Of a stretch of 64,000 nucleotides of DNA, positions 41,635 to 47,488 are shown one piece after another. Under the pieces are notes generated by a model that saw only the letters and a program-made list of their open reading frames with translations, did not search any database and was not told the DNA's origin. Source of the stretch: Alphaproteobacteria bacterium SO-S41. Lineage in GTDB: Bacteria > Pseudomonadota > Alphaproteobacteria > Micropepsales > Micropepsaceae. Each line of letters begins with the position of its first letter. The stretch's first letter is position 1. The DNA is taken from NCBI GenBank assembly GCA_019670725.1, contig AP024629.1, forward strand, positions 2,542,001 through 2,606,000, read 5' to 3'. The position numbers and the translations under genes are program-made.

Positions 41635-42429
41635 ATGGCGACCATCCTGCAGCAGATCGAAGTCTACAAACGGCGCGAAATCGCGGACCGCAAGGCGGCA
41701 CGGTCCTATGCCGAGGTCGCACGTGCCGCGGAAGCGACCGGCCCGGTGCGCGGGTTCAAGGCGAGCCTGGAACGGGCGATCGCGGCGACGGGATTCGGGC
41801 TGATCGCGGAGGTCAAGAAGGCGAGCCCGTCCAAGGGCCTCATCCGCGCGGACTTCGATCCGCCGTTGTTGGCGCGGGCCTATGAGGCCGGCGGCGCGGC
41901 GTGCCTGTCGGTGCTGACGGATACGCCCTCGTTCCAGGGCGACGACGCGTTCTTGGTCGCGGCGCGGGCGGCGACCGCCCTGCCCTGCATCCGCAAGGAC
42001 TTCCTGTTCGAACCCTATCAGGCCGCCGAAGCGCGGGCGCTGGGGGCGGACTGCATTCTCGTCATCATGGCCTCCGTGACCGACGACGAGGCACGGGCAC
42101 TGCTGGACGAGGCGGCACGCTGGGGCATGGATGCGCTGATCGAGGTGCATGACGAGGCCGAACTGGAGCGCGCGCTGGCGCTGGGCGGCGACGGGATGAT
42201 CGGTGTCAACAACCGCAATCTCCACACCTTCGAGACGACGCTGACGACGACCGAGCGGCTCGCCGCGCTGGTGCCCGAGGGGCGCATGCTGGTGGCAGAG
42301 AGCGGCATCAACACGCATGGCGATCTGACGCGTCTCGCGCACAGCGGCGCGCGGGCGTTCCTTGTCGGCGAAAGCCTGATGCGTCAGGTGGACGTGACCG
42401 CCGCGACGCGTACACTGCTCGACGGTTAG
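41635..42429 (+). CDS. trpC: indole-3-glycerol phosphate synthase
   Basis: 264 aa. Closes the indole ring from carboxyphenylaminodeoxyribulose phosphate. TIM-barrel landmarks: [15 protein letters not shown] with the catalytic Lys, [27 protein letters not shown] with the second Lys, IGVNNRNL, and VAESGI followed by AFLVGESLM for phosphate binding. No trpF domain is fused. It is preceded immediately by a terminator, so it seems cut off from trpGD expression. Confidence 0.97.
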
Positions 42430-42552: not shown

Positions 42553-43524
42553 ATGACGCTCTCGTGGGAAGTCTGGCGCGGTGACGAACGCATCCAGCGC
42601 GCGGAAACCAACAAGCCTTCAATGAAGTTCGGCGAGAAGGGACTGCCGGTCCACCTGCTGCAGGCGGCGTTGATCCTCAACGGGTTCGACGTCCCCCGTC
42701 ATGGCTTTCCACCAGGCGAAGTCCAAAAGGGCGACACCTATGGCGCGCAGACGCAGGCCGCGGTGCGGCAGTGCGAAGCCAGGTTCAAGCTGACGACGCG
42801 CGATACCGGGATCGCCGGCGCGGAGGTCGTCAGCCGGCTCGATCGCGAGACGGACGCTTTCTACAAGGCGCATGCGGGCCATTTCGGTGCGGCGCTGGCA
42901 CGGCAGGATGCAGGCCTCGCGCTCGGCAAGGTGACCTCGTCCCTGCTGGCGCTGAACTTCCTGCGCGCGGGGCAGTTGCCGGTCACGATCGCGCCGATGG
43001 TCAACAACGCGCTGCGTACGCATTTCCGGCTGCTGCCGCCGGGCAGCGCCGCGGCCGGTCCGCGGCGCGCGCGGACGGCGGCCGATCTCGACCGGATCAT
43101 CGCAACCTTCACGGCGCTCGCCGACGTCATCGCCAAGAGCGCCACGACCTTCGAGGACGGGATTCCCGTCAATGGCGTGAAGACCGCGGCCGAGTCCAAT
43201 ACCGGCTCGCTGATCGTGCGGTTCGGACCGTTCTATCGCGATTTCGACGCACCGTTCGGCGCACTGATCGGTCCGCATTCGCGCGCGGCGATCGTGATCC
43301 ACGAAGGGACGCACGCGGTGGACAAGACCGCCCCCTCGCCGAATGCGCTTGGACGGTCCGGGCAGGCCGATGTCCACATCTCGGAATTCGATCCTGCCTA
43401 TGACGTCCAGACGGCCGACCGGTCGCTGCTCAACCCGTCGAGCTATGCGAGCTTCGCGGCGCATATCGCCAATAACGGCGATCCGGTGCCGCGTTTCGGC
43501 CTGGGGGTCGGGCGAAACCGCTGA
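42553..43524 (+). CDS. peptidoglycan-binding-like domain plus putative aspzincin-like (HEGTH) metallopeptidase
   Basis: 323 aa. Residues 25-90 (KFGEKGLPVHLLQAALILNGFDV, then GAQTQAAVRQCEARFKL) look like a peptidoglycan-binding type 1 domain. Residues 175-310 contain HEGTH (His250-Glu251-His254) as a zinc site; Asp284, 30 residues later in DPAYD, could be the third ligand as in M35 aspzincins, and NPSSYASFA resembles the NADSYAxFA of that family. No signal peptide is visible, so export would need another route. ATG 42553 has GGAG upstream. No function is proven; the metallopeptidase call is inferred. Confidence 0.65.
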   Translation: MTLSWEVWRGDERIQRAETNKPSMKFGEKGLPVHLLQAALILNGFDVPRHGFPPGEVQKGDTYGAQTQAAVRQCEARFKLTTRDTGIAGAEVVSRLDRETDAFYKAHAGHFGAALARQDAGLALGKVTSSLLALNFLRAGQLPVTIAPMVNNALRTHFRLLPPGSAAAGPRRARTAADLDRIIATFTALADVIAKSATTFEDGIPVNGVKTAAESNTGSLIVRFGPFYRDFDAPFGALIGPHSRAAIVIHEGTHAVDKTAPSPNALGRSGQADVHISEFDPAYDVQTADRSLLNPSSYASFAAHIANNGDPVPRFGLGVGRNR

Positions 43525-43530
43525 CGGCGG

Positions 43531-43920
43531 TCAGGCCAGCTTCGCCAGCATCTCCCCCATCTTCTGGTGCAACAGGTTGATCGCCTTCAGCGGGCGGATC
43601 ATCACCTTGAAGCGGGTGATGAGGTTCGCCTCGTTCCACCAGATGAGATCGACGCCGTTGATGGTGATGCCGTCGATCACGGTGGAGAATTCCAGCACCG
43701 CGGAGTCCCGCGCATACCACTGGTTCAGATAGGTGAAGCTGCCGTTGTTCAGCACGACCAGGGCGCCCTGGAGATAGAGCGTCGCCTTGGCGCGGCCGAT
43801 ATGGGGCGTGTGGACGACGGGGGACTCGAAGACGGCGCCCTCGGCGAGCAGGCCGGGAACATCTTCGGCCCGGCCGCTCTTGGCGACGCGGAGCCAGTTT
43901 TCGATGGCGATGGCGGTCAT
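43531..43920 (-). CDS. NTF2-like / SnoaL-type protein
   Basis: 129 aa from ATG 43920. The layout (IENWLRVAKSGRAEDVPGLLAEGAVFESPVVHTPHIGRA, then TYLNQW and EFSTVIDGITINGVDLIWWNEANLITRFKVMIRP) is typical of the nuclear-transport-factor-2-like fold that binds hydrophobic ligands; the RFKVMIRP end strand is characteristic. Substrate unknown. It is convergent with the HEGTH gene, 6 bases apart, and divergent from moaC. Confidence 0.85.
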   Translation of the reverse strand: MTAIAIENWLRVAKSGRAEDVPGLLAEGAVFESPVVHTPHIGRAKATLYLQGALVVLNNGSFTYLNQWYARDSAVLEFSTVIDGITINGVDLIWWNEANLITRFKVMIRPLKAINLLHQKMGEMLAKLA

Positions 43921-44038: not shown

Positions 44039-44854
44039 ATGACCGACCTCACCCATGTCGATGAAGCCGGCCGCGCCGCGATGGTCGACGTGACGGACAA
44101 GACCGACACGGACCGGGTGGCGGTCGCCGCCGCCTTCATCGCCCTGCAGCCCGAGACGCTGGCAGCGATCGCTGAGGGCAGCATCGCCAAGGGCGACGTG
44201 ACGGCGGCTGCCCGCATCGCGGGGATCATGGCGGCGAAGAAGACGTCGGAGCTGATCCCGCTCTGCCATCCGCTGATGCTGACGGGCGTGAAGATCGAGA
44301 TTGCGCCGCGCGAGGACGGGGCCGGGCTGACGATCGAGGCGACGGCCAAGGTGCGCGGCCCGACAGGCGTCGAGATGGAGGCGCTGACCGCAGCCAGCGT
44401 CGCGGCGCTGACGATCTACGACATGGTGAAGGCGGTCGACCGCGAGGCGGTGATCGGCGATATCCGGCTGCTGTCCAAAAGCGGCGGCAAGTCCGGCGAC
44501 TTCGAACGCGACGGCGAGCCCGCGCCTGCCCCCGCCCGCGTGCCGGAGCCGGCCAAGCTGGTCTCGCGCGGGTTCCGCCGGGCCCCCGGCGCGGCCGCAG
44601 CGGCGGCCCGGCCGCGCAATGTGGATCTCGGCCCCGCCACGCCACGCGCGACGCATTCGCGGGCAGACGCGTTCCGCATTTTCCTGCGCGAAGGACGGCT
44701 TCAGGTGAGCGCCTGGGCGGCGGAGGCCGGCCTGCCGGTGGGGCTGGTCTACGGCTTCCTGCACGGCCGCGTCAGCCGGCTGCCGAAGGATGCCGAGGAA
44801 AAGCTCGCCAAGGCGGCGAACGCCACCATCAAGGATGTGTTCGGATCGGAATGA
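44039..44854 (+). CDS. moaC: cyclic pyranopterin monophosphate synthase MoaC fused to a C-terminal HTH-like domain
   Basis: 271 aa; ordinary MoaC ends near residue 158. Residues 1-157 carry [20 protein letters not shown] and [22 protein letters not shown], including the conserved catalytic residues. Residues 158-205 are a Pro/Ala linker. Residues 206-271 contain [49 protein letters not shown]-type helices, which look like a Cro/C1-like helix-turn-helix. The fusion is in one open frame. MoaC makes cPMP for molybdenum cofactor. It starts the run moaC-FMN reductase-moeA-lexA. Confidence 0.9.
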
Positions 44855-44898: not shown

Positions 44899-45474
44899 AT
44901 GGCGCTCAAGCTCAACGTCGTTACCACCAGCACGCGGCCGGGCCGCGCCGGCCCCAAGGTCTCCGAATGGTTCGCCAACTTCGCGACGACGCTCGGCAAT
45001 TTCGAGGTCGAGCTGGTCGATCTGGCATCGTTCAACCTGCCGCTGCTGGATGAAGCCAAGCACCCCGTGCTGCAGCAATACGCGCACGAGCACACCAAGG
45101 CGTGGGCGGCGAGCTGCGCGTCGGCGGACGCGTTCGTCTTCGTGACGCCGGAATACGACTACTTCCCGCCGGCGACGCTGGTGAACGCGCTGCAGTGCCT
45201 GTCGCGCGAATGGGCGCACAAGGCATGCGGCTTCGTCGGCTATGGCGGCGTCTCCGGCGCGATGCGCGCCGTGCAGGCGGTAAAGCCGCTGGTCACCACG
45301 CTGAACATGATGCCGATGGTGGGCTTGGTCACCCTACCGATGTTCAGCACGCTGATCGGCGAAGACGGCAAGCTGACCTCGAATGCGCTGATCGACAAGT
45401 CGGCGACCGACATGCTGAACGAGTTGCATCGCTGGGCGACGGCGCTGCGGACCATCCGGCACCCTGCGGGTTGA
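44899..45474 (+). CDS. NAD(P)H-dependent FMN reductase
   Basis: 191 aa. Flavodoxin-like fold with the phosphate-binding STRPGRAGPKVSEWF near residue 12 and the signature VTPEYDYFPPATLVNAL near residue 85, typical of the NADPH-dependent FMN reductase family (SsuE/ArsH-like). Might supply reduced flavin to the monooxygenase-like flavoprotein at 40278. It lies 44 bases after moaC and 4 bases before moeA in the same run. Confidence 0.92.
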   Translation: MALKLNVVTTSTRPGRAGPKVSEWFANFATTLGNFEVELVDLASFNLPLLDEAKHPVLQQYAHEHTKAWAASCASADAFVFVTPEYDYFPPATLVNALQCLSREWAHKACGFVGYGGVSGAMRAVQAVKPLVTTLNMMPMVGLVTLPMFSTLIGEDGKLTSNALIDKSATDMLNELHRWATALRTIRHPAG

Positions 45475-45478
45475 TCTC

Positions 45479-46681
45479 ATGATCTCCGTCGCCGAAGCCG
45501 AAGCGCGCATCCTGGCGGGCGTTTCGCCCGTCGCGGCCGGGCGCATCGGGCTCGATGAAGCGGCGGGGCGCGTGCTGGCGGCGGCGGTCGCGGCGCCGCG
45601 GACGCATCCGCCGCATGATGTCAGCTCGATGGATGGCTATGCGGTGCGGCAGGCGGACATCGCCGCTTTGCCCGCGATGCTGGAGATCGTCGAGCGGATT
45701 GCGGCCGGGGCGATGCCGCAGCTTGCGATCGGAGCCGGTCAGGCGGCGCGGATCTTCACCGGGGCGGTGATCCCGGCGGGCGCCGATACCGTCGTGATCC
45801 AGGAGGACACGCGGGCGGAGGCCAAGCGCGTGGCTGTGCTGGAAGCAACGGCGCTCGGACGGAACATCCGGCGGGCGGGCTATGATTTCCGTTCGGGCGA
45901 TGGATTGGCGGCAGCGGGCGCGCGCCTGACACCGCAGCAGGTCGCGCTGTTCGCCGCGGCGAATGTCGCGACGGTCGCGGCGCATCGCCGGCCGCGGGTC
46001 GCCATTCTGGCGACAGGCGATGAACTCGTGCCGCCGGGGATCGCGCCGGAAGGCGCTCAGATCGTCGCCTCGACCGGGATCGCGCTGGCGGCGATGTTGC
46101 GCGGCTGGGGGGCGGAGCCGATCGATCTGGGGATTGCGCGCGACGATCCGGAGGAAATCCGGGCGAAGGTCGCGCCGGGGCTGGACGCCGACGTGCTGGT
46201 GACGCTGGGCGGCGCCTCGGTCGGAGACCATGACATCGTGAAGCCGGCGCTGGGGCCGCTGGGGCTCAGCGTTGATTTCTGGAAGATCGCGATGCGGCCG
46301 GGCAAGCCGCTGATGTTCGGCGCGATCGGGTCAACCCGGGTGCTCGGCCTGCCCGGCAATCCCGTCTCGTCGCTGGTCTGCGCGCGGCTGTTCCTGGAGC
46401 CGCTGGTGCGGGTGCTCGGCGGCGAATCATGGCGCGGCCATCGGCTGATCGAAGCTCGTTTGGGGGCGGCGCTGGGCGCCAACGACCAGCGGCAGGACTA
46501 TGTGCGGGCGACTGTCGAAGCGTCGCAAGACGGCCCGATCGCAACGGCGCTGCCGCTGCAGGACAGCGGCAATTTGTCAGGATTTGCGCGGGCGGACGGG
46601 CTGATTTTGCGGGCGCCGCATGCTCCGGCTGCCGAAATCGGAGCACCGATCAAGCTGCTGCCTTTGGCGTCGTGGCTGTGA
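45479..46681 (+). CDS. moeA: molybdopterin molybdenumtransferase MoeA
   Basis: 400 aa. Inserts molybdate into adenylylated molybdopterin. Landmarks: SSMDGYAVR near residue 50, RIFTGAVIPAGADTVVIQEDT, ILATGDELVPPG, TLGGASVGDHD and MRPGKPLMFG-LPGNPVS. The molybdenum cofactor made here is needed by MsrP (23915). lexA follows after a gap that holds the LexA box. Confidence 0.97.
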   Translation: MISVAEAEARILAGVSPVAAGRIGLDEAAGRVLAAAVAAPRTHPPHDVSSMDGYAVRQADIAALPAMLEIVERIAAGAMPQLAIGAGQAARIFTGAVIPAGADTVVIQEDTRAEAKRVAVLEATALGRNIRRAGYDFRSGDGLAAAGARLTPQQVALFAAANVATVAAHRRPRVAILATGDELVPPGIAPEGAQIVASTGIALAAMLRGWGAEPIDLGIARDDPEEIRAKVAPGLDADVLVTLGGASVGDHDIVKPALGPLGLSVDFWKIAMRPGKPLMFGAIGSTRVLGLPGNPVSSLVCARLFLEPLVRVLGGESWRGHRLIEARLGAALGANDQRQDYVRATVEASQDGPIATALPLQDSGNLSGFARADGLILRAPHAPAAEIGAPIKLLPLASWL

Positions 46682-46709: not shown

Positions 46710-46724
46710 GAACTAAACTAGAAC
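46710..46724 (+). promoter_or_regulatory. LexA-binding SOS box
   Basis: GAAC-N7-GAAC, which on the other strand is the alphaproteobacterial SOS motif GTTC-N7-GTTC, 45 bases before the lexA ATG. This indicates autoregulation of lexA. Confidence 0.9.
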
Positions 46725-46768: not shown

Positions 46769-47488
46769 ATGCTGACGCGCAAACAATACGAGCTGCTGAT
46801 GTTCGTGCACGAGCGGATCCGCGAAACCGGGGTACCGCCCTCGTTCGACGAGATGAAGGACGCGCTGGACCTGAAGTCCAAATCCGGCATTCACCGCCTC
46901 ATCACGGCGCTTGTGGAGCGCGGGTTCATCCACCGACTCGAGCACCGCGCGCGCGCGCTGGAAGTCATCAAGCTGCCCGAGAACACCGCCCAGTCGCCGC
47001 GCTTCAAGAGCGCCGGGTTCTCGCCTGCGCTGGTCGAAAATACCGGCTCGCTGCGCGCCAAGCCCCCCGTTCCCCTGCCCGCCGGCGCCATGATGGCGAG
47101 CACGGCCAACACCTCGATCCCGCTGGTCGGCAAGATCGCCGCGGGTACGCCGATCGAGGCGCTCCAGGCCAATGGCAACGAGATCACCGTGCCGCCGGAC
47201 ATGCTGGGCGCGGGCGAGCATTACGCGCTGCATGTCACCGGCGACTCGATGATCAATGCGGGCATTCTCGACGGCGACACGGTCATCATCCGCAAGGCCG
47301 ACACGGCGACCAATGGCGACATCGTGGTGGCCCTGGTGGACGATGCCGAAGCGACGCTGAAGCGTATCCGCCGCAAGGGCGAGACGGTCGCGCTGGAAGC
47401 CGCCAACCCGGCCTATGAGACGCGCATCTACGGCCCTGACCGCGTGAAGGTGCAGGGCAAACTGGTCGGGCTGCTGCGCCACTACTGA
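46769..47488 (+). CDS. lexA: LexA repressor
   Basis: 239 aa. The N-terminal winged helix (residues 1-65, [51 protein letters not shown]) is standard alphaproteobacterial LexA. The autoprotease has the Ala125-Gly126 cleavage site in KIAAGTP, Ser160 in TGDSM and Lys198 in ATLKRI. An SOS box precedes it. The stop overlaps the end of convergent comEC by 7 bases. Confidence 0.98.

Follow-up and report, generated by a model that had tools for sequence, protein, structure and literature searches.

MoaC, the cyclic pyranopterin monophosphate synthase of the molybdenum cofactor (Moco) pathway, is a hexamer. Metabolic enzymes that carry a DNA-binding domain are known, BirA and PutA among them, and the enzymes HppE, HEPD and MPnS combine a helix-turn-helix (HTH)-like domain with another enzyme fold. 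MoaC is also extended in frame in several known fusions: the curated models MoaC/MoaB (NF002947), MoaC/MOSC (NF011069) and MoaC/MobA (NF011070) have Moco-pathway or MOSC domains as partners, and the archaeal fusions MoaC-MoaC, MoaC-MoaE and MoaC-MoaB are named in a survey of archaeal fusions (PMC11237513). The moaC gene of the alphaproteobacterium SO-S41 has an in-frame extension in common with the curated fusions, however, its partner is an HTH domain, and no description of a MoaC-HTH fusion was found in a search of open-licence papers.

Compared with plain MoaC (PF01967, TIGR00581; PDB 1ekr, 4pyd), with which its residues 1-158 align end to end, the SO-S41 protein adds a linker and a C-terminal HTH, together 113 residues, and some relatives have a decayed MoaC part or none at all. 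A five-helix fold and a helix 2-turn-helix 3 unit are common to the tail and to Cro/C1-type (XRE) domains (HTH_26, SinR, 434 Cro, P22 c2, DdrO and S24-type repressors), whereas the SO-S41 domain lies at the C-terminus of an enzyme and its recognition helix is unusually small and hydrophobic. BirA and PutA likewise unite an enzyme with a DNA-binding-like domain, but here the HTH survives alone, in the same chromosomal place, after the enzyme part has been lost; the existence of the tail on its own also sets it apart from HppE, HEPD and MPnS. Enzyme-plus-HTH proteins are already known as a kind, and what is uncommon here is that the HTH outlives the enzyme.

In the window, the whole 64-kb stretch of SO-S41 DNA that was analysed, positions 44039-44854 on the plus strand translate as a single open frame of 271 amino acids. 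The MoaC domain occupies residues 1-158 (44039-44512, +) and was delimited by Pfam and NCBIfam profiles, by invariant positions and by alignment to solved MoaC. Pfam MoaC (PF01967) matches residues 15-150 with 188.5 bits against a cut-off of 27, TIGR00581 is matched with 204.5 bits against 141.5, NCBIfam NF006870 is also passed, and residues 1-158 align with the solved structures over their full length (E 7e-51). All columns that are invariant among 25 MoaC rows, SO-S41 included, are intact, among them K51, C76-H77, E112, E114, D128, K131 and K147; of these, we take K51, H77, E112, E114, D128, K131 and K147 to be active-site or catalytic positions. By these sequence features, the MoaC part looks like a complete, working synthase. 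The models of the curated MoaC/MoaB, MoaC/MOSC and MoaC/MobA fusions match only residues 3-162, and the SO-S41 protein falls below the cut-offs of the bifunctional models (191.8 versus 285, 185.1 versus 457 and 129.9 versus 606 bits).

The initial annotation had described an in-frame fusion of MoaC through a Pro/Ala linker to a Cro/C1-like HTH, with moeA 0.6 kb downstream, and each of these features was recovered. MoaC and the tail lie in one frame in 57 of 96 genomes of the family, which rules out chance read-through or an assembly artefact. The linker, residues 159-203 (44513-44647, +), is rich in Pro and Ala and is predicted to be mostly disordered, with pLDDT below 50 at residues 163-203 of the full-length AlphaFold2 model, and it contains an SRGFR motif that resembles the RSAGMR of relatives that have only the HTH. 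The moeA start lies 625 bases downstream of the fused gene.

The C-terminal HTH domain comprises residues 204-271 (44648-44851, +), with helix 2, the turn and helix 3, the recognition helix, at residues 223-241 (44705-44761, +) of the full-length model, and was assigned by profiles, AlphaFold2 and fold matches. The profile search gave a divided answer: the SO-S41 tail alone matches the Cro/C1-type profile HTH_26 only weakly (E 0.036, 14.7 bits against the Pfam cut-off of 22), whereas, with E up to 1 as the limit, 43 of 46 aligned tails from SO-S41 and relatives match it, the best at 2.3e-8, and 35 of the 46 match HTH_31. The HTH_26 cut-off is passed by the tails of L112 (22.8 bits) and L163 (29.7 bits) and not by those of L116, L111 and L206. 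A search of the PDB with the SO-S41 tail sequence returned nothing useful, and with the tail profile the hits were two TetR proteins, one at E 0.02 and the other at E 0.7, and a prophage protein (E 0.84).

Structure prediction recovered the HTH fold in both the tail and the full-length protein. The AlphaFold2 model of the tail (81 residues, three alignment rows) contains five helices, with block-mean pLDDT of 83-90 in the domain and pTM of 0.59, and the same five helices are present at residues 208-268 of the full-length model. The best PDB matches of the tail model are the DNA-binding domains of SinR, 434 Cro, DdrO and P22 c2, with VIA Z scores of 9.7-10.3 and 1.5-2.2 A over 63-67 residues, although by the tool's own warning a Z below about 13 can reflect an arrangement common among helical bundles. 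In Foldseek, the best E is only 8e-3 and no match reaches 0.001. The models indicate that the tail is, by fold, a Cro/C1-type HTH. The HTH-like domains of HppE, HEPD and MPnS superpose on the tail model as well as the repressors do (VIA Z 8.3-10.3), and because these enzymes have the same fold, an HTH fold alone is no proof of DNA binding.

Seven of eight scanned relatives of the tail from outside the group pass the cut-off of HTH_26 or HTH_3, and five of the eight (L125, L169, L170, L174 and L175) also pass that of Peptidase_S24, a make-up that by its profiles is the architecture of CI/LexA-type repressors. The protein at L125 (positions 1477-2124) is a 215-aa repressor-like protein with HTH_26 and Peptidase_S24 matches, and its HTH, although from outside the group, is closely related to the tail (E 1e-18). 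Seven columns are invariant in all 46 tails (R213, F215, W226, A230, L241, L256 and A257), and the seven tails that were checked are basic, with a pI of 9.6-11.7. At the presumed base-contact positions, which we take to be those that contact bases in the 434 repressor, most residues of the recognition helix are small or hydrophobic (V/A, G/A, Y/L, G/A/S), with T/H and R following the helix.

The tail is present in 75 of the 96 family genomes, and a search of the order returned the same 96. Of the 57 one-frame fusions, 55 were assigned by a single match running from residue 1-4 to residue 267 or beyond, and those of G044 and G048 by direct reading; in all, some 31 of the fused proteins were read, and the others rest on match coordinates. 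The fusion in G002, counted among the 55, has an in-frame TAG stop, and G013 holds a 58th fusion, the halves of which appear to be split over two contig ends. A decayed MoaC remnant followed by the HTH is found as four genes in three genomes (G019, G070 and, with two copies, G082), the linker and HTH alone are found in 13 family genomes, and the HTH gene of G057 is cut by a contig end. The tail is absent from 21 genomes, seven of which keep MoaC (G008, G021, G043, G047, G053, G056 and G080); in the other 14, several of them incomplete, neither MoaC nor the tail was seen. Some lineages have lost the HTH but kept MoaC, so that the HTH is not indispensable.

Beyond the family, up to the best 15 candidates per genome were scored in draws from the class and the phylum. 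In the class draw of 385 genomes, 23 match the tail at E up to 1e-3, of which three are family members; G401, G313, G386 and G295, from outside the family, match below 1e-20, and 16 further genomes match more weakly (best 8.9e-16). These four are MoaC-HTH fusions from two other orders, in which the tail is present in two of four and three of five genomes, the fifth tail-bearing genome, G477, also having a fusion. Ten of the 398 genomes of the phylum draw match at E up to 1e-3, with only SO-S41 below 1e-7, and no MoaC-HTH fusion was found in the two draws beyond the family and the two further orders. Among 80 named loci retained from 580 candidates, the tail is present in L031 and L032 and not within the DNA covered for the other 78. 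The survey of alphaproteobacterial MoaC that the initial annotation had proposed finds the tail widespread, in 75 of 96 family genomes and in two further orders.

In the loci read, the order of genes is trpC, then one of three forms (MoaC-HTH, remnant-HTH or linker-HTH), then lexA, with or without moeA before it. In SO-S41, trpC (41635-42429, +) is the upstream syntenic anchor, and in most loci read it lies directly upstream of the moaC-HTH or HTH gene; lexA (46769-47488, +) is the downstream anchor in both fused and HTH-only relatives. The fusion is mostly followed by moeA (45479-46681, + in SO-S41), which is the next gene in most fused loci read. In SO-S41, a gene of the NADPH-dependent FMN reductase family (44899-45474, +) sits between the fused gene and moeA and was found in no other locus compared. 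A gene with a peptidoglycan-binding domain (42553-43524) and a SnoaL-like gene on the minus strand (43531-43920) separate trpC from the SO-S41 fusion; outside the genus of SO-S41, trpC and the moaC-HTH or HTH gene are adjacent or overlapping in most loci read. Of the remnant forms, L111, L114 and L115 stand before lexA without moeA, and L206 is accompanied by moeA, with lexA outside the stretch read. The linker-HTH proteins, of 129-139 aa, lie between trpC and lexA without moeA in 13 of 13 loci. G082 has two trpD-trpC-X-lexA loci on two contigs (L114 and L115), in each of which X is a decayed MoaC with the HTH. Five genomes rated 95-100% complete (G053, G060, G061, G071 and G080) have neither a trpC match nor the HTH tail, which suggests that they lost the whole locus. 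TrpC is matched in 73 of the 75 genomes with the HTH and in 7 of the 21 without it; linkage and assembly gaps confound this difference, which is given no weight as evidence.

The remnants are recognisable as MoaC by profile. L206 passes Pfam MoaC with 40.6 bits against 27, and in a search of only four sequences with a family MoaC profile, L206 and L115 match clearly and L114 and L111 weakly. Eight MoaC positions (51, 76, 77, 112, 114, 128, 131 and 147) were scored in the remnants, where the alignment is uncertain, and are changed or deleted at five positions in L206, eight in L111, six in L114 and seven in L115. A single-gene TrpC tree, with several weak forks, was built from 60 rows, since two of the 62 labelled loci (L002 and L003) have no TrpC. 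The HTH-only form, three of the remnants and the intact-looking fusion L023 constitute one well-supported group of 17, and the L206 remnant sits elsewhere on the tree. To account for the remnants, the well-supported branches require at least two changes; the HTH-only form requires at least one, and the four loci with a MoaC that has no HTH at least three.

A mechanism is proposed on the computed fusion, fold prediction, conservation, purifying selection and persistence without MoaC and MoaA. The MoaC enzyme would carry a separate Cro/C1-type HTH module on a flexible linker, and this module would act as a small regulator, a putative DNA binder, of a target outside Moco synthesis. The target would most likely belong to the trp-(moaC-moeA)-lexA group in which the protein is encoded, or lie close to it, and a MoaC oligomer would present several HTHs, presumably in pairs. 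In relatives that are devoid of the cofactor pathway, the MoaC part would have decayed or vanished while the linker and HTH stayed in place. We consider it somewhat more likely than not that the HTH module binds DNA and regulates a non-Moco target, probably in or near this gene group. A DNA-binding regulator is favoured by the repressor kin, the basic charge, selection and persistence of the domain; against it stand a recognition helix poor in polar residues, an operator search that gave no candidate, and the 21 of 96 genomes in which the tail is absent.

The main rival is that the HTH is a protein-protein or structural module, for docking of a partner for example, that does not read DNA; we regard this as a lesser but appreciable possibility. 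The helical domain of HppE-type enzymes is a module of this sort, and the presence of HppE, HEPD and MPnS among the fold matches is consistent with a docking role, as is the scarcity of polar residues in the recognition helix. Linker motifs point the same way in the HTH-only proteins, of which 12 of 13 have RSAGM[RL] and 13 of 13 a P-x-x-LMGE-like motif. Among 33 fused proteins, however, just 7 and 14, respectively, have related motifs, as do none and two of the four remnants; four fusions from the other orders have the RSAGM[RL]-related motif in three cases and the P-x-x-LMGE-like motif in none, so that conservation of the motifs is partial. This census, which left out the split fragment L009, used regular expressions written after the alignments had been viewed and is descriptive. 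A docking role also sits poorly with an HTH that is basic, that persists without the enzyme it would help, and most of whose closest relatives from outside the group join an HTH to an S24 peptidase-like half. A DNA-binding regulator is preferred here over docking.

The initial annotation had proposed that the fused enzyme could control Moco genes such as moeA through binding to DNA or RNA. As MoaC binds an intermediate of the pathway, it could act as its sensor, and the fused gene lies directly before moeA in most fused loci read; on this reading, MoaC would sense pathway flux and the tail would repress moaC-moeA. The proposal is weakened by 12 of the 75 HTH-bearing genomes, which have neither intact MoaC nor MoaA and in which the HTH is kept (G019, G042, G057, G059, G069, G072, G074, G075, G077, G081, G082 and G083). 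MoaA (PF06463) was found in 72 of the 96 family genomes. Five of the 12 (G069, G074, G075, G081 and G082) are 98-100% complete, G057 is 89% complete and G077 58%; as a baseline, MoaA was not matched in 5 of 58 fused genomes (G009, G012, G013, G050 and G076), so that single absences in draft genomes may be gaps and are not proof. In ten of the 12, the HTH lies between trpC and lexA without moeA, G019 has moeA beside the HTH, and G057 is the genome with the contig-cut gene. Five further genomes (G017, G024, G038, G068 and G070) have the HTH at the trp locus and, beside moeA elsewhere, separate MoaC genes without an HTH, which also counts against control of cofactor genes. G068 has three such MoaC genes with moeA on three contigs (L200, L201 and L202), its trp locus encoding the linker and HTH only. 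As the HTH is kept without MoaC and MoaA, and also occurs in genomes with separate MoaC genes, it is not tied to cofactor synthesis. Judged by gene content, the HTH outlives the cofactor pathway, a persistence that favours the initial annotation's assignment of the domain, and control of cofactor genes is unlikely to be its main role; the flux-sensing reading as a whole seems to us distinctly improbable.

Selection on the domain was estimated as dN/dS by the Nei-Gojobori method. In four fused genes of the genus of SO-S41 (six pairs), dN/dS is 0.12-0.28 for the HTH, 0.21-0.25 for MoaC and 0.16-0.48 for the linker. Among the HTH-only genes, of which 8 of 13 were used and comparisons were limited to dS below 1.5, dN/dS of the HTH is 0.05-0.15 in the seven closest pairs and up to 0.45 in more distant pairs. 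The HTH is under purifying selection, about as strong as that on MoaC in the genus of SO-S41. The initial annotation would have counted against its reading a predicted structure with no HTH fold, or a tail absent from all relatives and free of such selection; the predicted structure has the fold, the tail is widespread and its dN/dS is low. Neutral or near-neutral hitch-hiking of a phage-repressor fragment, fused by accident and tolerated, accords with the 21 genomes that have no tail, seven of them with MoaC, but is largely contradicted by the low dN/dS and is made very improbable also by the seven invariant columns in 46 rows, the occurrence of the tail in three orders and its retention after MoaC loss.

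An operator for the putative regulator was sought upstream of several genes. No conserved block was found upstream of the fused gene among five genomes of the same genus, and the regions upstream of trpG are too varied for an operator search. Before lexA, a GAAC-N7-GAAC box, presumably SOS-box-like for alphaproteobacteria, is present in all 16 loci of the remnant or HTH-only form. Where the lexA start could be located, the box is also present in 18 of 19 fused and 4 of 4 HTH-less loci; one of the 20 fused loci and one of the five HTH-less loci were unreadable. In SO-S41, this direct repeat lies at 46710-46724, 44 bases before lexA, and the pattern is found twice in the window against a chance expectation of 1.6. 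Because the box is present with and without the HTH, these lexA promoter elements are independent of the HTH.

More tentatively, the regulator may have grown as a C-terminal domain on a Moco enzyme and then outlived it, the catalytic half being shed or decaying upon loss of the pathway and the linker-HTH being kept between trpC and lexA as a dedicated regulator; a protein once devoted to Moco would thereby be linked to tryptophan or SOS genes. For annotation, a gene called moaC in this group may have a second function that is independent of the first, and the gene of some 130 codons that relatives have between trpC and lexA encodes the same HTH module. Fused, decaying and HTH-only states occur at one locus, which makes the role of the added HTH and the shedding of the catalytic domain directly testable. 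The usual reading of a fusion between an enzyme and a regulator is that the enzyme controls the pathway to which it belongs, whereas the comparison made here argues the reverse, with the regulator-like half kept once the pathway is gone.
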